In this document: positions 8,864 through 27,279 of the stretch, piece by piece
How positions within the stretch are numbered: the first letter of the stretch is position 1
Layout: each line of letters starts with the position of its first letter
IMG/VR virus record: IMGVR_UViG_3300009506_000567
Span: 1 to 39,775 of that record
Reading direction: 5' to 3' (one strand)
Source: a virus
DNA: 39,775 nt
Notes under the pieces: generated by a model
Seen by the model: the letters and a program-made list of their open reading frames with translations, nothing else
What the model was told of the DNA's origin: nothing
Databases searched by the model: none
Position numbers and translations under genes: made by a program

Positions 8864-9372
8864 TGAGACAACCTATATTCGTCAGTAATTCTCCAATAGA
8901 TGAGAAAAGAATATCTTTTATTGAAAGGACTGTGTCCAAGCTAGCTCGTAGATCAGTTAGCGTAGCTAAAGCATATCTCTCTCCTTACCCAATTTCTGGA
9001 TGTGTGGCAGGGGAGGACGTCAAAGGTGACGTACTCAAGTACATGTTTGCATCTGGAGGGAAGATAGCTAAGGGTAAGATAGTTATCGTCGACACCTTGA
9101 AACAAGGAGTTACGGTAACTATCAGAATAGAAAGTAACAAGACTGGAACCACAAAGAGCTATCTGATCGAGAAGAAGGAAATCACTGTCGAGCCAGATAT
9201 CTTGGTCAATTCTGGTGACAGACTAACAATCTCTCTGAACCCCACATCTGTTGAGGATAAGATCACGGAGGTCTGGATGTGCTTCCTTTGGGTTCCAAAA
9301 GTCAAGGATGCAGATATAAAACAATTCCTGATCGACGAGCTGGAGAGTCAAGATGATACTGAAGAACAATAG
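8860..9372 (+). CDS. Beta-sandwich virion protein, function unknown
   Basis: A 170-residue protein placed between the two tail tubular genes. A short helical N-terminus is followed by alternating strands (KIVIVDTLKQGVTVTIRIES, KEITVEPDILVNSGDRLTI) and an acidic C-terminal tail (ELESQDDTEEQ). The start ATG overlaps the preceding TGA, with GGAGG six bases upstream of the second ATG and one base before the first; either could be used. The position suggests a minor tail component; the sequence alone does not tell what it binds. Confidence 0.6.
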   Translation: MMRQPIFVSNSPIDEKRISFIERTVSKLARRSVSVAKAYLSPYPISGCVAGEDVKGDVLKYMFASGGKIAKGKIVIVDTLKQGVTVTIRIESNKTGTTKSYLIEKKEITVEPDILVNSGDRLTISLNPTSVEDKITEVWMCFLWVPKVKDADIKQFLIDELESQDDTEEQ

Positions 9373-9414
9373 CAGATGAGGTGGCCATCCCTGTCGGTCG
9401 ATAGGAGGTAGCAA

Positions 9415-9612
9415 ATGCCAGCAGCATTTAACAAGTGAGTTGCCCAAGGGGGCCGAGTTCGGACCAAGAAACTTGAGGGCGGAAAGTATGTTCACGTCTG
9501 CTTCAAAGGCGGAAAGAGTCACGCTGGAGAAGTTAAGACGAAGAAGTCTCACCACTCAGCTCAGGACGGAACGTTCCTGGAGGAGAGAAGAAGGAGGTTC
9601 AAAACCAAGTGA
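9415..9612 (+). CDS. Small basic protein gene interrupted by an in-frame TGA (codon 8)
   Basis: ATG 9415 has an excellent AGGAGGT site 6 bases upstream. The frame reads MPAAFNK, then TGA at 9436-9438, then 57 well-formed residues (VAQGGRVRTKKLEGGKY, then HVCFKGGKSHAGEVKTKK) to TGA at 9610-9612. That stop overlaps the GTG start of the tubular B gene (GTGA), the coupling seen for real gene pairs. No start codon exists in frame just after the TGA. From memory, small phage proteins of this look carry Cys at this position, one base change from TGA. Possibilities are stop readthrough, selenocysteine-type recoding, a point-mutated pseudogene or a sequence error. Confidence 0.6.
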
Positions 9613-11009
9613 GGGAACTTGAACTTACCATATATGATGCTATTAGGGCAGGGCTAAGTCCTCTAGACGTAACTCCTGTTAACTCGGACTTCCTTTCCAA
9701 ACTCCTAGGATTCAGGTGTGGAAAGGGCCAGCCAGAGCTGTATGATGGATCTAATAACCCACTACCCACTGCCACTGATCTATACTACAACTGGCCCTTT
9801 CCGCAATTTATTAGTGGAAAAAGGTACAATGTCTTGGTTGTTAGGGACTCAGTCTTCCAGCATGAAGATAAAGTGTATATAGTAAGTGACGACCACTCTA
9901 CCGTAACAGAGATCTTCGCAATCGACGCTCTGACGTTTGGCGTGGGGACGCTGATGGAAGTAGCCGACTTCGGCGCGTATGCTATAATGGTTAATGGAGT
10001 TATAATAATCTACTGGGACCCTGATATTGGGGATTGGAGAGAGATAACTGGAAGTGACAACATTCCGTTGATCAGGACTATATGTAACTTCAAGGGTCAG
10101 GCTGTAGGTGGGAATGTAGTTAACGGGTGGAAGTCGCTAGACGAGACCTTCTATGTATGGTCTAGGATAGGGTATCTAAACTTCTATCCAGAGAGAACCA
10201 ACGAAGCCGGATTTCGTAGGTGTCCTTACGGAGGAGAAGTTTACCATGCCAGAAGGTTAGGTGACTCAGTTATCGGATACTCTTCTAAGGGAATCTGTAT
10301 GATGACTCCAGTAGGTTCTCCAGCTGCGACGTTCAGGTTTGACGAACTAAGTGACGTCGGACTGATTAACCAAGGAGCTATGAATGGTAGCTTGGATGGA
10401 CAGATCTACGTAGGAAGTGACCATAGACTCTATGGGGTATCCAGACAGGGAGTTAAGGAACTTGGGTACAAGAAGTTCATCGAGGAGCTGGATGGGGAAG
10501 ATATTATAATAACTTACGACAAGGCTAATAAGGATTACTATATAGGGAACAGTGAGAAGACCTTCTTACTCTCACCTTATGGAATGTCAGAGGTCCCACA
10601 ACACCCTTCCGCTGTGTGGAGTATAAATGGTAACACCTACATGCTTCCTGATGCGGAAGATAATTACCTAGCTGAAATAAACAGTGAGGTAATCAACTTC
10701 GGCTACGGAGGGCAGAAAACTATCTTCTCAATGGAGTCAGACATATTTACTGCTATGGACCCGCAGGTTGCGGTGGACTATACCTACGACCTGATGCATT
10801 ATGAGTCGACGAAGTTCGTTCCTCTCAACTCTCAAGGTATCGCATCTATTATTGCATCAGGTAACGCATTCAGATTGAAAATTAGATTTGACCCAACCTA
10901 CTTAGGAACCAATATAAGTTACATAAAGGCCAGATACAAAATGACAGATCTCCGCGGGCTGCGTGGAATCTATGCACCGCCTCCTAGAGGACAGTCTTAT
11001 GTTGACTAA
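9609..11009 (+). CDS. Tail tubular protein B-like nozzle protein (T7 gp12 type)
   Basis: A 466-residue protein predicted to form the tail nozzle. Repeated blade-like units (VYIVSDDHSTVTEIFAID, YAIMVNGVIIIYWDP, RLGDSVIGYSSKGICMMTP, GQIYVGSDHRLYGVSRQGV, YYIGNSEKTFLLSPYGM) give the beta-propeller pattern seen in such proteins. It starts with GTG, overlapping the TGA of the upstream small gene, and has AGGAGG 11 bases upstream. It is shorter than T7 gp12 (about 790 residues), so parts of the platform domain may be missing. The A-type protein lies three genes upstream. Confidence 0.65.
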   Translation: MRELELTIYDAIRAGLSPLDVTPVNSDFLSKLLGFRCGKGQPELYDGSNNPLPTATDLYYNWPFPQFISGKRYNVLVVRDSVFQHEDKVYIVSDDHSTVTEIFAIDALTFGVGTLMEVADFGAYAIMVNGVIIIYWDPDIGDWREITGSDNIPLIRTICNFKGQAVGGNVVNGWKSLDETFYVWSRIGYLNFYPERTNEAGFRRCPYGGEVYHARRLGDSVIGYSSKGICMMTPVGSPAATFRFDELSDVGLINQGAMNGSLDGQIYVGSDHRLYGVSRQGVKELGYKKFIEELDGEDIIITYDKANKDYYIGNSEKTFLLSPYGMSEVPQHPSAVWSINGNTYMLPDAEDNYLAEINSEVINFGYGGQKTIFSMESDIFTAMDPQVAVDYTYDLMHYESTKFVPLNSQGIASIIASGNAFRLKIRFDPTYLGTNISYIKARYKMTDLRGLRGIYAPPPRGQSYVD

Positions 11010-18648: not shown

Positions 18649-19848
18649 TTCATCCCTCCTAAGTATCTTCACTATTGCATCTGCACTAGGTCTCTTAATA
18701 ACCTTAGCGGTTCCAGTGGCCTCGAGTGTTTCGGTTATTCTATCCAGCGTAGGTTTGTCTGCATCTCCCTCAAAGTACCTAGCGAACATGGAGTAGGGTA
18801 TCTCGTCTGACTTGGAAGTCTTAAAGAACATATTAGCTCTGAACATCAAGTCGGCTATGTCACTCTTGCCAACTCCTTTGAACGTCAGTGCCATCTTCTT
18901 CTCGACGTCTGTTAGAGTCTCAATGGCTAGCTCTAGACTATCCCTTGTTAGTACTAGGTTACTATCTCCCATCGAAGCACTCATGACCATAGCTAGTTTC
19001 ATCAGGTGAACCTTGCGCCGTCCACAGTAGCCATCAAACTTTGGGCCATGAAAAGGTGGGTTGGCCAGGTCATGCTGCCTCCAGTCGGCCCATAGATCCA
19101 TAAACCCTTGTGTCCAACTAAAGTCACCAGACAGAAGCGAGATTGCCTCCAAGTCACGTACAAGATATTCGAACAGCAACTGCTGCTCTGGACTCTCGGT
19201 GGGAAAGATAGATATAACATCTGGACAGTCTGCGTAGACAAAGATGATTCTGGAAGTAAGACCACCTCCGATAGAGTCTGGAGGAAGAGAGCTACGAATA
19301 AGGTCAGGAGTAGTACCACCAATAAGATTAACCCACACTCCGTGCACCTTCTCTTTCGATCTTTTAATTGTATCATAGGTCCAGTCCTCCTCACAATCGT
19401 ACCAGTTGCATAGGGTTGAGATTAGTTCGTTGTTCTTATATCCAAGGAAGACTGTAAATTCCTCGGAGTAGACAGTCATAGATGAGTGAAAGCTCATGGA
19501 ACCATCTTCATGAACGTCGGTTAGGTTGTTGTCCTTGAGTGACGTTATTAAGGCTTGGAGGGAAGTAGCTTGGGCTGACAGTTTGATGGCAGGGACCTGC
19601 TTGATTATGTCGAGTGCTGGTCGCATAGCTGTGCCCTTACCTGTGGCACTTCGTCCGACTAGGATTATGTACAGGTTAGGATAGAATGTCAGTGACACTC
19701 CCCAGCGGACCCTGACCTTACGCTGGAGAGCGCTAGCCAGACACATTATACCTGCCCATTTTAGGTAGATTGATGCAGTCTCGACATTCTTCGTGTATTC
19801 CATGAAAGCATCTAGCCAGTTTGGCAGCTTCCTGGTGAGATTAGGCAA
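18643..19848 (-). CDS. DUF3987-type ATPase, probable replicative helicase
   Basis: A 401-residue P-loop protein. Residues 57-75 (PNLYIILVGRSATGKGT) include a Walker A motif and match the family in which Pro-Asn-Leu precedes the P-loop; a Walker B-like strand with EE follows (TVYSEEFTVFLG, about 128). The later IIFVYADCP and helical C-terminus complete an AAA/RecA-like core. In phages this family stands in for DnaB-like or primase-helicase functions at the fork. The TTG start at 19848 is supported by AAGGAGGT 6 bases upstream, and it overlaps the end of the polymerase gene by 37 bases, so the two are co-translated. No primase domain was seen. Confidence 0.7.
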   Translation of the reverse strand: MPNLTRKLPNWLDAFMEYTKNVETASIYLKWAGIMCLASALQRKVRVRWGVSLTFYPNLYIILVGRSATGKGTAMRPALDIIKQVPAIKLSAQATSLQALITSLKDNNLTDVHEDGSMSFHSSMTVYSEEFTVFLGYKNNELISTLCNWYDCEEDWTYDTIKRSKEKVHGVWVNLIGGTTPDLIRSSLPPDSIGGGLTSRIIFVYADCPDVISIFPTESPEQQLLFEYLVRDLEAISLLSGDFSWTQGFMDLWADWRQHDLANPPFHGPKFDGYCGRRKVHLMKLAMVMSASMGDSNLVLTRDSLELAIETLTDVEKKMALTFKGVGKSDIADLMFRANMFFKTSKSDEIPYSMFARYFEGDADKPTLDRITETLEATGTAKVIKRPSADAIVKILRRDES

Positions 19849-22334
19849 CCGTAGACCTCCTTGAGTTTGTCAGCTAGAATCTCAGGTGTACCTGGGACCT
19901 GTTTGCTTTTGAGTTCTACCATTTGCTTCTTGAACATGTTGAGGCCAATGGACAGGTCGGCTGGAGTAGGTATCTCTCGCTCGTGCCAGTAGAGTGGGCG
20001 CTCTAATGACTGCTTAATGTCTAGGATCATTCTAGCGTGTTCGATCCAGGGGATTGAAAGAGGGATTTGAAACACTATGGAGTCATGGATTTGGGTTAGT
20101 AGTTCGACTGGTGCAAACTTGGATTGGTTGTAGTAGATATATTCTACTCCGAACTCGTTGATCTTGTCAGCGACAGTTGACTGGGGAAGCTGTGCGTAAG
20201 CCTCTCGGAATGTCACTAGACATGCACTACGTGGGACGGTCTGGGATGGAATGATAGGGCCGAGGAATAGTCTGCGTCGACCAAGGAGGTTAGTGACGAA
20301 GCGATTCTTCATCAGCATATCTTGGATGATAGCATGATATCCCTGGCGGATTTGAGGATAGCCCAGATGGATTCGTTCCAAGAGTTTCTTGGCAGATGCT
20401 TCGTCTAGTTCATTCTTCAACGCGAACGTCTTATATCCAACGTCGTAGTTAGTTGCGTGGTTACCTTTCTTTCCCCAGAACCTTTCACTCTGTCGGCCGT
20501 CACCTAGGGTAGAGGATCCTTCCTCCGCTGAGATTTCATCATAAGGTCTATTGAAGATAACTGAGGCGGTGAGTCGGTGGAGGTCAATTCCTGACTCGAA
20601 TGCCTGGATTTGCGATAAGACGCCTCCAACGTAGGCGACGATCCTATTCTCAATTTGAGAGAGGTCGATACTGTATCCAATATATCCTTCATCAAAGAGA
20701 AAGAATCGCAGTAGATCTCTCGGCCAGTTCTGTTGATTACCTCCAGCTCCAAATATAGTTTCGCCCGATGAGATTCGACCTGTCTCAGCTCCAACCGGCT
20801 TGTATGAACTTCTATATCTACCATCTTTATCCACCTTTCCTATTTCCAGATACGTCGAGATACGTTTGTTGAGACTACGAATGTCCAACATGATCTGGGC
20901 GGCCTTGTAGCCGCGACGAGCTAGACGTTTCATAGCGTCGACGTCAGAAGTCTCGACCCACTGGCCTTTAGTATTTCGTTTCTTATAAGGTTTGAGGCCT
21001 AGTTCCTTGTAAAAGTATCCCATCACTTGAGCTGGTGAGTTGGGGTTGAGTTCGTAGCCCACTTCCTCATGTAGTGCAGCTATACACTTGTCGACTTCAG
21101 CTTGTTGTTCTTCTTTGTATTTAGCCATCTCGTCTACGTCAACCCTAATCCCTCGCTCAGCCATGTAGATGAGAGGCTTGATTAGCTTACGCTGACGGTG
21201 GTAGGTTTCGAGATTCTGTTGTCTGATTAGTTCTTGGAGCTGCTTCGGGTGAGCTTCGTTAGGAACTATCACATCCATACCGTTGTAGTTCCACCACTCT
21301 TCCCATGAGCCAGCGCCCATCTTAATCCACTGCTTGCCGTCTTCTTTGTAATAAGGTATGTCAGTCCACATACGGCAGACTTGATCCAGGCCAGCGCCGA
21401 AGTCAGGGAAGGCTATCTTCTGAGCGATCTGGGTACAATGAAGTTCACCACGTGGAACTATTCCGTACTTGTGGAAGAGGAACTGGGTGTCGAAGATGAA
21501 GTTAGCTCCTCGCTTGGCCACTCGATCTTCACTGAGTATCTTCGTAACCAGAGCCATGACTTCAAGCTCTTGCTCAACAGTGAAATAATCACCCCTCGAG
21601 TCGCGGAAGGGGATGCTAATTGCCTCTGAACTAGAGTAGCTAAAAGAAATACAGTCGACTTCTCCACTGATAACTTCAATGTCAACGTCGATGACTTGCC
21701 CACGGAGACCGACTTCGTAACAGTATTCAAGGTACTGAACGGACTGTTCGAAGCTGGGCTTAATAATAATCTTTCGTGGTCTCCTTCTAATTTCCATGAA
21801 TTCTGCTTCATGTCTAGCCCTCGTCAAGTCCTCTACAATCTGAGGCTTGTTTAGGAAGTTGAACTTAGGTGGGATGAAAGTGGCTGGGTGAAATGTAGGG
21901 ACGACCTTGAGACCTGGCACCAAGGTTGATTCCAACACTGACCCATGCCACTTTCCAATTCCAACTCGTGAACATAGAGCTACCAACGGTATTGCGCCGC
22001 AGGCGATTATACAGTTGAGGTTGAGTGCTGATAGTTCGTCACGGAGTTCGTGGATATACTCCCACCCCTCGTCAGAGATACGCCAAGACTGTCTGTGGTA
22101 GTCGATGGATATGTAGTGTTCAAGGGGACGGTCTAGGTCTTTAATTACGTTGGTCAGATACATCTCGTGGCGGGGTATCTTGGCCATTACTAGACATTCA
22201 TCTAAACCCTGTCCAGCTGGGCCAATGAAAGGGCGAGGAGGGCGTCCGCGAACTTCTTGGATGCCAGGCTGTTCACCGCAAGCGGCTAACCTAGCATCAC
22301 GATTGCCGTAGCCAGGGACGTAGGTTTTTCTCAA
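19812..22334 (-). CDS. polA: Uracil-DNA glycosylase-like / DNA polymerase I (family A) fusion
   Basis: An 840-residue replicative polymerase. Residues about 1-175 form a family 4-like uracil-DNA glycosylase module (GEQPG at 20-24, FIGPAGQGLDE at 36-46, TNVIKD at 61-66, FHPATF at 148-153). A 3'-5' exonuclease follows with all three motifs (DVDIE at 216-220, NFIFD at 278-282, YNGMD at 350-354), then the polymerase: TGRISS at 518-523, motif A with DLSQIENR at 557-564, motif B from R618 to Y630 with K622, and motif C QIHDS at 748-752. By eye the site of E. coli Phe762 is His626. TTG start with GGAGGT 5 bases upstream; that site abuts palindrome copy 8. The glycosylase part may sense uracil in template DNA. 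Confidence 0.85.
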   Translation of the reverse strand: MRKTYVPGYGNRDARLAACGEQPGIQEVRGRPPRPFIGPAGQGLDECLVMAKIPRHEMYLTNVIKDLDRPLEHYISIDYHRQSWRISDEGWEYIHELRDELSALNLNCIIACGAIPLVALCSRVGIGKWHGSVLESTLVPGLKVVPTFHPATFIPPKFNFLNKPQIVEDLTRARHEAEFMEIRRRPRKIIIKPSFEQSVQYLEYCYEVGLRGQVIDVDIEVISGEVDCISFSYSSSEAISIPFRDSRGDYFTVEQELEVMALVTKILSEDRVAKRGANFIFDTQFLFHKYGIVPRGELHCTQIAQKIAFPDFGAGLDQVCRMWTDIPYYKEDGKQWIKMGAGSWEEWWNYNGMDVIVPNEAHPKQLQELIRQQNLETYHRQRKLIKPLIYMAERGIRVDVDEMAKYKEEQQAEVDKCIAALHEEVGYELNPNSPAQVMGYFYKELGLKPYKKRNTKGQWVETSDVDAMKRLARRGYKAAQIMLDIRSLNKRISTYLEIGKVDKDGRYRSSYKPVGAETGRISSGETIFGAGGNQQNWPRDLLRFFLFDEGYIGYSIDLSQIENRIVAYVGGVLSQIQAFESGIDLHRLTASVIFNRPYDEISAEEGSSTLGDGRQSERFWGKKGNHATNYDVGYKTFALKNELDEASAKKLLERIHLGYPQIRQGYHAIIQDMLMKNRFVTNLLGRRRLFLGPIIPSQTVPRSACLVTFREAYAQLPQSTVADKINEFGVEYIYYNQSKFAPVELLTQIHDSIVFQIPLSIPWIEHARMILDIKQSLERPLYWHEREIPTPADLSIGLNMFKKQMVELKSKQVPGTPEILADKLKEVYGCLISPGSCQTG

Positions 22335-22344
22335 GCTAACCTCC

Positions 22345-22369
22345 AGTTGTTTAAATTATTTAAACATCT
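22345..22369. repeat. 25-bp border palindrome, copy 8
   Basis: Half-sites AGTTGTTTAAAT and AGATGTTTAAAT around a central T. The TAA stop of the ParB-methyltransferase gene lies inside it, and the GGAGGT of the polymerase gene abuts it. Confidence 0.9.
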
Positions 22370-23688
22370 AATCCATGAACCTTAACCAAGAATGAATCCC
22401 TATACCCCTTCCCAAGTTCCCACCCAACAGCTGACATACCTAGCTTGTGGGCGGAGATGAGTCCATTACCTGAGCCGAGAAAGGGGATCATTACCCTCGA
22501 ACCAGGGAAGGCAAACGTGTCGTAGATTTCGGTTGTCAACTCGACCGGGCGCTCTGTTGGGTGAGTCTTCTGTTGAGCTGGAACTGGAGGGAAGGAGAAG
22601 ATGTTTAACCTACCTGGCTTGTTAAGTGCTGGCCGACCCTTCCAGGCATAGAAGAACATTTCATAGCAGTTGGCTAAGTGCATCTCAGGCCTCTTTGCTT
22701 GACCGTAGGGCTTAGCCCAGATGCCACACATGCGAGTGGATTCGAAGCCTGCTACTCTGAGGAAGGCATAGATAGACTCGAACCAGGGTTCAGGTGCGAA
22801 CCAACAGATTAGCCAGGAGTGATCAGCCATTGCACGGTAGCATTCTTGGAAGGTCTTGATTAGGAATGCTTCATACTCTCCTACATCAACCTCATTATAG
22901 TCATCTTGCGTCTGTCTATACAACCCTTCGTTCTCAGTCTTCTTCGCATGCTTCAGATCAATAGCATACGGAGGGTCTATCTCAACCAGATGCATCATAC
23001 CATCTGGGACCTTCTTCACTCCCTCAAAGAAGTCACCGAGGATGTAGCTGTTGGCGAGTTTCTTGATAGTCGTGCCAGCATTCTTGTCACGCTCAAGTTT
23101 CTCAGCTATAGTCTGCTTAATAATAGCCTCGTCCATCTTCTTAATGACATTAGTTGCATCCTTCTGAGTTTTGCACTTCTCGAACAGTTCAGGGAAGGCC
23201 TGACGAGCCTCGTGACGTTTGATTGCAGTAGATACTGAAGCTCCTGTAATTCCAAATATCTCTGCGGTGTCAGCAAGTCTATGTCCAGTATGTCCAGGCC
23301 CAGGTGCCGCAGAGCCAATAACTTCTCGTTGCAGGCGATCAATTTCTGCGACAAGTGAGTCGTATTCATAGTACTCCATATCCTTTCGGTAGAAGTTCTC
23401 AGCCTTCTCGATGATCTTCATCTGGAGTTCTGATAGTTCACCATTGTAGATGCGCACAGGCACGTCGCAGACTTGGTTGGACAAGAGGATCGTATAGCGA
23501 CGTTCCCCAGCTAGGAGGCGGAACTTCCCACCACCAGTGTCTTGGACTGCTAGTGGTTGGATGAGTCCGCTTTCCTTCAGCGAACATTCAAGGGAGGATA
23601 GGTCACCTAGCTCCTGCCTAGCGCGCTCACCCACTTCGATTGAATCAATAGGTATCATTGCAACTTTGCCAACTTCAATAGTCATCAT
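22360..23688 (-). CDS. ParB-like domain fused to a DNA N6-adenine/N4-cytosine methyltransferase
   Basis: A 442-residue fusion. Residues about 10-100 are a ParB/Sulfiredoxin-type domain (IPIDSIEVGERARQELGDL, GLIQPLAV, LLAGERRY at 58-65, the nucleotide-binding box). About 135-160 is a KorB/ParB helix-turn-helix (RLADTAEIFGITGASVSTAI). From about 215 comes a beta-class methyltransferase: catalytic DPPY at 238-241, HPTERPVEL at 376-384, and the SAM-binding FLGSGN at 403-408 near the end. It probably methylates phage DNA at a site found by its N-terminal half, for protection against restriction or for control. The stop codon lies inside palindrome copy 8, and the gene starts right after the previous stop (TAG-ATG). 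Confidence 0.8.
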   Translation of the reverse strand: MMTIEVGKVAMIPIDSIEVGERARQELGDLSSLECSLKESGLIQPLAVQDTGGGKFRLLAGERRYTILLSNQVCDVPVRIYNGELSELQMKIIEKAENFYRKDMEYYEYDSLVAEIDRLQREVIGSAAPGPGHTGHRLADTAEIFGITGASVSTAIKRHEARQAFPELFEKCKTQKDATNVIKKMDEAIIKQTIAEKLERDKNAGTTIKKLANSYILGDFFEGVKKVPDGMMHLVEIDPPYAIDLKHAKKTENEGLYRQTQDDYNEVDVGEYEAFLIKTFQECYRAMADHSWLICWFAPEPWFESIYAFLRVAGFESTRMCGIWAKPYGQAKRPEMHLANCYEMFFYAWKGRPALNKPGRLNIFSFPPVPAQQKTHPTERPVELTTEIYDTFAFPGSRVMIPFLGSGNGLISAHKLGMSAVGWELGKGYRDSFLVKVHGLDV

Positions 23689-25534: not shown

Positions 25535-25601
25535 AGCCATCTCCTAGTTGTCTCTTCAAATTTTTTCTAAAGTTTCGAAAAATGATCGGTGTTGGGAAAT
25601 G

Positions 25602-25706
25602 TGCTGGCAGGCAGGACTTGGACCTGCACGGACATGACCACTATCATCCTACGGGGCGCTGCCATACCCTACCCGCTGTAGCGTCTGTATTTCGCCACTG
25701 CCAGCA
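25602..25706 (-). tRNA. tRNA-like element, class II (Leu-like) pattern, anticodon not resolved
   Basis: On the minus strand, TGCTGGCAG at the 5' end is perfectly complementary to CTGCCAGCA at the 3' end, giving a 7-bp acceptor plus two extra pairs. Next comes TGGCGAAAT, then AGACGC, which is the D-arm signature of leucine tRNAs but without the GG of the D-loop. A T-arm GCAGG/CCTGC with loop TCCAAGT sits exactly 5 bases plus 7 before the end, and a variable-arm-like hairpin (GGATGA, then TCATGTCC) precedes it. The anticodon region is about 12 bases too long and I cannot form a 5-bp stem with a 7-base loop. It may be a degenerate tRNA, one with an insertion, or a tRNA mimic. Confidence 0.4.
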
Positions 25707-25714
25707 CACACTTG

Positions 25715-25792
25715 CTAGAACGGAAAGTCATCTGGGTGAATAATCTTCGCAGCCTCGGGCCCAGTTACCCACGGCCGCTGGGTCATTTTGGG
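25715..25792 (-). other. Predicted -1 ribosomal frameshift site and -1 frame SSB tail
   Basis: Read on the minus strand, the slippery heptamer C-CCA-AAA (25786-25792) lies directly before the zero-frame TGA (25783-25785). A -1 slip gives CCC-AAA-ATG and an open frame of 23 codons to TAG at 25715-25717. The extension ends HPDDFPF, the acidic aromatic tip typical of bacterial SSB proteins. A possible stem (CAGC with GCTG, enclosing GGCC with GGCC) starts 5 bases after the heptamer. The alternative is a one-base insertion in the assembly or a natural frameshift mutation. Confidence 0.6.
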
Positions 25793-26223
25793 ACTATGTA
25801 CCGTGACACTCCGTTCTTGTCAGGGTACTCGCCAGTCTTGTCCTTGACTACCTTCAGCACCACCCAGCCTTCTAGTCCAGGGAGATCATCTTCCCAGCTG
25901 AAGGGACGTGAGTAGTCGAGGTTAAATGCTTCAGCGAAGTCACGGAACTGACGAAGGGCTGCGGCATACTGTTTGGGATCGAGTTTGTCACGTGAGTTCA
26001 GGTCCCAGAAGAAGTCATTGAACATGGGACAGTTGACTTCAGATGGAACGTCGTAGGTGACCGAATGCCACTCGGCGCCGTAAGAGTTCTTAGCCTCGTC
26101 GTCAATGATGCCACTGTCGACTCGAACTATTCGCACTTTAACCTCACTCTTTGCTGGAAGAATCTGAAGTTCCGGCGCGTCCTTGATTTCCCTTTCAATA
26201 TCACTATAATCGGTGAGAGACAT
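25783..26223 (-). CDS. ssb: Single-stranded DNA-binding protein (DUF669/SSB-like)
   Basis: A 146-residue zero-frame product, predicted to coat single-stranded DNA during replication and recombination. The N-terminus (LQILPAKSEVKVRIVRVDSG) and the body with EWHSVTYDVP and LEGWVVLKVV follow the pattern of phage DUF669-like OB-fold proteins: a Pro-Ala-x-x-E/Y phrase, then five strands. It lies in the recombination block next to a Sak4-like ATPase and a RecB-type nuclease, where an SSB is usual. The zero frame lacks the acidic tail, but the -1 frame supplies one (see the frameshift entry), giving 169 residues. AAGGAG lies about 10 bases upstream of the ATG. Confidence 0.7.
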   Translation of the reverse strand: MSLTDYSDIEREIKDAPELQILPAKSEVKVRIVRVDSGIIDDEAKNSYGAEWHSVTYDVPSEVNCPMFNDFFWDLNSRDKLDPKQYAAALRQFRDFAEAFNLDYSRPFSWEDDLPGLEGWVVLKVVKDKTGEYPDKNGVSRYIVPK

Positions 26224-26448: not shown

Positions 26449-26473
26449 AGGTATTTAAATCATTTAAACAACT
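26449..26473. repeat. 25-bp border palindrome, copy 10
   Basis: Half-sites AGGTATTTAAAT (the most divergent arm) and AGTTGTTTAAAT around a central C. It contains the TAA stop of the Sak4-like gene. Confidence 0.85.
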
Positions 26474-27279
26474 AATCGAGGCTTATCTTCCCAATCCAGT
26501 CCAACCTTCTTCAGCAACGCCTTGATGTTGGGCTCTTCCTCAGCAGCCAGCTTCCCACTCCCTTTCAATCTACTCCTCGCAATGTATTCGCCTAGTGAGT
26601 CAACTAACATCCTTCGCCTGGGATTTACCCCCTTGCCAACGATGACGTATAGTTCATCAAACAGCAAGGGGACGGTGATGACTGCTTGACCTGTAATGTA
26701 GAGGCGATAGGTCACTTCCTCTTGCTTCGCCCCACTGGATTTATCTACACTTATTAATCTTCTCTCCTCCCTTAAGTGCCCAGTGATGATGAAGTCACAA
26801 GGGAGGTTCATCAGACGTCGGATTCTATTCTCGATCTCGACTTTCTGCGGGTTGTAGTCTTGACGATGTAGTGGGGCTTCACCAGCTCTACCCTTCGAAG
26901 CGAGTTGGAAGTTCATAGCTGCCTGAGCGAAAGTTGTCAGACCATCTATTCCATAAGTCCCGAATTGATTGAAGTATCCGATCTTCAATCTAATCTCATT
27001 CACCTTCTTCCACTCAGCGTAGACCTTAGGATCAAATGGGTCTTCAGTTTCCCACTGGGTGTCGGCCACTATGTCACCTGACTCAATCCACTTCCTCAAA
27101 CACTTCGTCCCGCCGGGATCGAAGCTGTCTAGGTGAACAGGGAAGCGAGCGGTAGAGAATAGGTAGGTCTTCCCACTGTTTGTTTCTCCAGTGACGATTG
27201 CAGAGAATCGCTTCTGCATTGGATCGTTGGCGTAGTGCTTTTTCACCTTTTCAAGTTCTGCCTTTGCGTCGTAGGGCAT
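26464..27279 (-). CDS. Sak4-like RecA-fold ATPase (phage recombination)
   Basis: A 271-residue P-loop ATPase of the kind used for phage single-strand annealing or strand exchange. Walker A is at 31-38 (GETNSGKT). VHLDSFDPGG follows, then a central GIDGLTTFAQAA and a hydrophobic strand ending in FIITGHLREE, the usual Walker B and sensor region of this family. The C-terminal part (RRRMLVDSLGEYIARSRL) resembles the conserved arginine-rich end of Sak4-type proteins. GGAGGTGA is 7 bases from the ATG. The SSB-like gene downstream and PD-(D/E)XK nuclease upstream form a typical recombination set. Confidence 0.75.
   Translation of the reverse strand: MPYDAKAELEKVKKHYANDPMQKRFSAIVTGETNSGKTYLFSTARFPVHLDSFDPGGTKCLRKWIESGDIVADTQWETEDPFDPKVYAEWKKVNEIRLKIGYFNQFGTYGIDGLTTFAQAAMNFQLASKGRAGEAPLHRQDYNPQKVEIENRIRRLMNLPCDFIITGHLREERRLISVDKSSGAKQEEVTYRLYITGQAVITVPLLFDELYVIVGKGVNPRRRMLVDSLGEYIARSRLKGSGKLAAEEEPNIKALLKKVGLDWEDKPRLVV

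Follow-up and report, generated by a model that had tools for sequence, protein, structure and literature searches.

A likely programmed −1 frameshift at the end of a phage SSB-like gene, with a layout that recurs in three lineages of its family

Introduction

Most of what is known of frameshifting in phages concerns tail and capsid genes. In the lambda G/GT tail-assembly chaperones and in the capsid genes of T7 (gene 10), T3, and A2, a slippery site near the end of the gene gives rise to a minority product with a C-terminal extension, the ratio of the products being set by the slip (PMC5009743). A frameshift site has also been predicted in the tail genes of corynephage phi16. Outside these structural genes, bacterial dnaX provides two forms (tau and gamma) of a DNA-replication protein from one gene, and for some candidate species it is reported that slipping yields the longer dnaX form and that a stop directly follows the site (PMC5009743). 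As for the SSB proteins, E. coli SSB ends every subunit with the tip DDDIPF. The HK620 protein of the DUF669 type, a small OB-type phage protein adjoining sak4, has been demonstrated to be an SSB. Published work presents it as a single protein whose C-terminal tail is ordinary and carries an acidic Phe-ended tip, and its last six residues, NDYPPF, are required to bring Sak4 onto SSB-covered ssDNA (PMC5928155).

Herein, we describe an SSB-like gene that touches on all of these systems. It lies in a 39,775-nucleotide stretch of viral DNA (IMG/VR record IMGVR_UViG_3300009506_000567), the whole of which was analyzed and is called the window below. Like the tail and capsid genes, it has a slippery site near its end and would yield a minority product with a C-terminal extension, at a ratio set by the slip. 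Unlike them, it encodes a predicted DNA-binding protein of replication/recombination, and the slip would add a short motif for partner binding rather than a structural domain or part of a chaperone. With dnaX it shares the stop directly after the site and the prospect of two forms of a replication protein from one gene; the proteins are unrelated, however, and the dnaX extension makes up about one third of the protein. The HK620 SSB is matched in size, OB-type fold, neighboring sak4, and kind of tip, but here the tip lies in the −1 frame and there is no DUF669 profile match. The type of tip and its position at the very C-terminus recall E. coli SSB, whereas only frameshifted subunits would carry it in the window.

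What is new is thus the kind of gene and of product, while the mechanism of −1 frameshifting is already known. We found no report of frameshifting in any SSB in the literature searched (which left out most subscription papers), and SSB is mentioned neither in the sections consulted of the review cited above (PMC5009743) nor in the PRFect paper.

The slip site and the −1-frame tail

All features of the gene lie on the minus strand. The frame-0 ORF (25783..26223) starts with ATG and encodes the tip-less form, an SSB-like protein of 146 aa that ends ...VSRYIVPK* (codons GTC CCA AAA TGA). The slippery heptamer CCCAAAA (25786..25792) is read in frame 0 as C CCA AAA; across the 11 codons where both frames overlap, it is the sole in-frame heptamer of the X XXY YYZ form. 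It is abutted by the stop TGA (25783..25785), the position of which matches the stop of tip-less relatives; in two of these, L004 and L018, the ORF ends CCT AAA TGA, with the stop at the same place.

From the heptamer, the −1 frame (25715..25786) adds 23 codons, MTQRPWVTGPEAAKIIHPDDFPF, followed by TAG. It begins ATG ACC CAG and ends GAT GAC TTT CCG TTC TAG, with the stop at 25717-25715, and it supplies an SSB-type C-terminal tip: the acidic HPDDFPF, ending in PF, is found at the C-terminus of the −1-frame form only. The shifted product is predicted to be 169 aa long, versus 146 aa for the unshifted one. Downstream, a spacer of 7 nt (25779..25785, stop included) separates the heptamer from a putative stimulatory stem-loop, GCGGCC.GTGGG/CCCGAGGCTGC, with a 6-nt loop (25749..25778) and a predicted energy of -20.9 kcal/mol (z about -2.3 to -2.8). 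Upstream of the slip site, no well-placed Shine-Dalgarno-like stimulator was seen. This sequence architecture is demonstrated, and most of the original prediction, made from the sequence alone, held: the heptamer directly before the TGA, the 23 further codons ending HPDDFPF, and the presence of a predicted downstream stem were all confirmed. Its spacing of 5 bases failed, as 7 nt lie between the heptamer and the stem.

An OB-fold protein next to sak4

The window protein has no match in Pfam, and in PHROGs it is matched only by phrog_2300, a family of unknown function. AlphaFold2, run with 60 relatives, yields a confident OB-fold model (pLDDT 93.7). Among solved structures, this model best matches that of PrgE from plasmid pCF10 (Z 10.6 over 115 residues); bacterial SsbA is among its Foldseek matches, and phage DUF669 models dominate its matches in the viral structure library (BFVD). 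A sequence search of the whole PDB with the family profile returned no match. Against the DUF669 Pfam profile (PF05037) the window protein has no match either, with 1 of 60 members at E 0.071. We consequently do not file the protein as DUF669, the likeness being limited to the fold and the sak4 neighborhood.

This neighborhood is directly observed. A Sak4-like annealing protein (26464..27279, minus strand; phrog_124, E 5.6e-15), likely the partner of the tip, is encoded just upstream of the SSB-like gene with one small ORF in between, and a Sak4 homolog is present at 70 of 73 related loci. The label "SSB-like" is accordingly supported by the fold and the neighboring sak4, not by a sequence-profile match. 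That the protein is an SSB is a strong inference from these two features and the HK620 precedent, without ssDNA-binding data.

By analogy with HK620, the phage's own Sak4 annealase is the most likely partner of the tip, and host SSB-interacting proteins are possible as well. Partner binding is inferred, with the caveat that it is drawn from HK620, whose protein has no detectable sequence similarity to that of the window.

Tips among the relatives

Searches of IMG/VR and bacterial genomes, together with one named phage, gave 74 distinct family genes, the window included. Among named phages there is no close homolog; the only match, in a Desulfofustis phage (26%), is tip-less and was left out of the tally of the remaining 73. 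In these, the gene ends without a tip in 57 cases (one, L391, is truncated by its contig end), with an in-frame tip in 12, and with a −1-frame tip in 4. In-frame tips occur in L001 and L003 (close relatives of the window), in L047, and in others, and their presence in 12 other members means that the family does use tips. A tip is absent from L029 (74%) and L335 (about 71%), the two relatives closest to the window, so it is dispensable in the family. In no family member does a tip occur in frame +1, or past the stop in frame 0, within 450 nt.

The four genes with a −1-frame tip are those of the window, L056, L093, and L078. Both L056 and L093 end in frame 0 with ...SKYVSGK TAA and continue in the −1 frame as VTKPRMVEDDEIPF, with the tip EDDEIPF. 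The site reads G GGA AAG TAA in L056, with an 11-bp stem 7 nt on, and T GGA AAG TAA, a degenerate heptamer, in L093, with the same stem at the same distance. L078 (to which L079 is identical across the 500 bases compared) ends ...KYIAPKK TAA, with the site A AAA AAA TAA, a stem of about 16 bp 5 nt on, and the −1 frame ITEHYTKNWALTPPEDDIPF, tip PEDDIPF.

Single-frame relatives, which the original prediction had named as refuting it, were thus found in part: L001 and L003 have a single-frame tip and many members have no tip. The same comparison revealed two more phylogenetically separate lineages with a heptamer before the stop, a stem 5-7 nt on, and a DD-x-PF tip in the −1 frame. This recurrence is demonstrated, and it supports the proposal of a programmed −1 frameshift that yields SSB with and without a tip; slippage itself remains an inference.

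How unusual is the layout?

Leaving aside the genes whose tip is in frame, perfect heptamers stand immediately before the stop in 3 of the 4 genes that have a −1 tip, compared with 0 of the 56 that lack one (Fisher p = 1.2e-4). As a base rate, such a heptamer precedes the stop at 4 of 625 other ORF ends in the family's contigs. When each ORF end in these contigs was tested in each frame (934 tests), a tip of the form [DE][DE]..PF occurred four times, always in this gene and always in the −1 frame; on this control, −1-frame tips in the SSB-like gene exceed the chance expectation.

The two diverged contigs L056 and L093 can be compared directly. Over the 414 nt of the core they differ at 20 positions (12 synonymous and 3 non-synonymous codons), and over the 42 nt of the tail at 1, a synonymous TTT-to-TTC change that keeps the stem pair (G-U to G-C). 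The window tail is a single sequence without close orthologs, so selection on it is not measurable.

The stems deserve a more cautious reading. All four predicted stems, 7, 7, 7, and 5 nt past the site in the window, L056, L093, and L078, lie within the distance of about 5-9 nt that is characteristic of programmed −1 sites. In L056, L093, and L078 the stem takes in much of the tail-coding sequence and closes just past the tail stop. Since the tip-less L035, L074, and L364 also carry long hairpins (stems of 11-15 bp, perfect or nearly so, that lie 7-9 nt past the SSB stop and enclose loops of about 37-59 nt), a stem alone is not diagnostic and serves as supporting evidence only. Possibly, such a post-gene hairpin was the raw material from which slip sites evolved, although this is an inference.

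In the maximum-likelihood tree, which was built on few columns, the −1 tip needs at least three changes, and these are forced by well-supported branches. The window groups with the tip-less L335 and L029, L078 with the tip-less L083, and L056 with L093, all of which are among the supported groupings. The three −1-tip clades are thus separate, each with tip-less relatives nearby; in-frame tips also require three changes. Independent gain of the −1 tip is the simplest reading; an ancestral state that was lost repeatedly remains possible.

Proposed mechanism

In our view, the phage SSB gene of the window likely ends in a site of programmed −1 ribosomal frameshifting. There are no expression data, and slippage, its rate, ssDNA binding, and the tip partner are all inferred. 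Most ribosomes would read GTC CCA AAA and halt at UGA, giving the tip-less SSB of 146 aa. In a fraction of them, the Pro and Lys tRNAs would move back one base on C CCA AAA to CCC AAA, while the stem 7 nt downstream would hold the ribosome during the slip. Ribosomes that slipped would pass over the UGA and extend the protein by 23 residues, the last of them HPDDFPF. The mix of both forms would then set the number of partner-recruiting tips on SSB-coated ssDNA, most likely for Sak4. In relatives with an in-frame tip, every subunit would have one, and in tip-less relatives none would.

A bolder reading, toward which we lean with some reserve, is that phages repeatedly evolve a frameshift as a dosage switch for a short interaction motif. 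Tip-less SSB would coat the ssDNA, and a set minority of tipped SSB would recruit the annealase or host repair proteins. If true, the frameshifted genes would represent an intermediate stage in evolution, lying between SSBs without tips and SSBs that are fully tipped.

Frameshifting would here control the number of tips on SSB, a hub of replication and recombination. The locus would offer a natural way to ask how many tips SSB-coated DNA requires, with three convergent cases that can be compared with tip-less and fully tipped relatives. As gene callers miss −1-frame tails, tip-less phage SSBs in databases merit re-inspection.

Alternative explanations

ALTERNATIVES: sequencing or assembly error is the first rival, whereby a base was lost in CCCAAAA and the true gene is a single ORF of 169 aa. 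In its favor, there is only one contig of the window phage, and in two close relatives, L001 and L003, the tip is in frame. Against it, the frame-0 stop lies where the tip-less L004 and L018 stop, a comparison with the proteins of relatives over roughly 9.2 kb of the window shows no other broken gene, and the window contains no N. Moreover, the same layout is common to three lineages, and in the L056/L093 lineage two diverged contigs have it; base-calling error is therefore no explanation for it. We regard this rival as unlikely.

A natural one-base deletion may instead have severed a once in-frame tip, leaving the −1 frame as an untranslated, decaying remnant. The tip has often been gained and lost in the family, and indels arise readily where one base is repeated. 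However, after each of three independent deletions a slippery heptamer at the stop and a stem 5-7 nt on would have to remain. The tails are, furthermore, free of stops, and that of L056/L093 has one synonymous change versus 20 changes in the core. This scenario, too, has little going for it.

Less plausible still is that the 23 codons form a separate small gene, translated by coupling from the ATG that overlaps the stop (ATGA). The overlap exists and could apply to the window only; no ATG, GTG, or TTG is found at the matching place in L056, L093, or L078. There is no Shine-Dalgarno-like sequence at the usual distance, and an SSB tip is meaningful only when attached to SSB.

Slippage of the RNA polymerase rather than the ribosome is likewise improbable as the source of the fusion: the run of seven A in L078 speaks for it and could apply to L078 only, whereas CCCAAAA and GGGAAAG are too short for known transcriptional slippage and stems 5-7 nt downstream fit ribosomal frameshifting. 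Stop readthrough and a +1 shift are ruled out as a general route by the absence of tips in those frames within 450 nt.

Other observations

Beyond the family, IMG/VR pattern scans for heptamer, stop, and tip and a narrower A6G scan returned mostly chance matches or ordinary in-frame tips. One unrelated phage SSB (phrog_1192; L210, reverse strand, about 9162-9916) ends A AAA AAG TAA and continues in the −1 frame as VKPDNDSDDLPF, with the tip DDLPF. It is possibly the same trick in another SSB family. We did not count it: its run is A-rich (eight A), a search for close relatives gave none, and the gene ends differently in two named phages of its family. In L191 (7988-9837, plus strand), a RecB-like/Sak4-like fusion ORF (phrog_8097) has a C-terminus rich in Lys/Arg; it stops in frame 0 at ...KRESK TAA and continues in the −1 frame as VKTPFDGGTIEISDDDLPF, but its site, GTCAAAG, is not a canonical heptamer.

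About 11 of the 74 loci have, behind the SSB gene, a tRNA-like sequence with a class II (Leu-like) acceptor, a D-arm, and a T-arm. In the window this sequence lies at 25599-25707 on the minus strand; the others, also just after the SSB gene, are in L004, L005, L011, L017, L018, L026, L036, L064, L077, and L078. Those of L004, L011, L018, L064, and L077 seem to have odd anticodon arms and a D-loop insert of some 50-75 nt closed by TGGCAAG/CTTGCCA. ARAGORN called no tRNA among these tRNA-like sequences, and Rfam gave none in the window.

Two further minus-strand genes of the window are domain fusions. At 19812-22334, an N-terminal uracil-DNA-glycosylase-like domain (PF03167, E 2.6e-13) is joined to a DNA polymerase A with an exonuclease domain, and at 22360-23688 an ORF of 442 aa fuses a ParB N-terminal domain to an N6/N4 DNA methylase domain.
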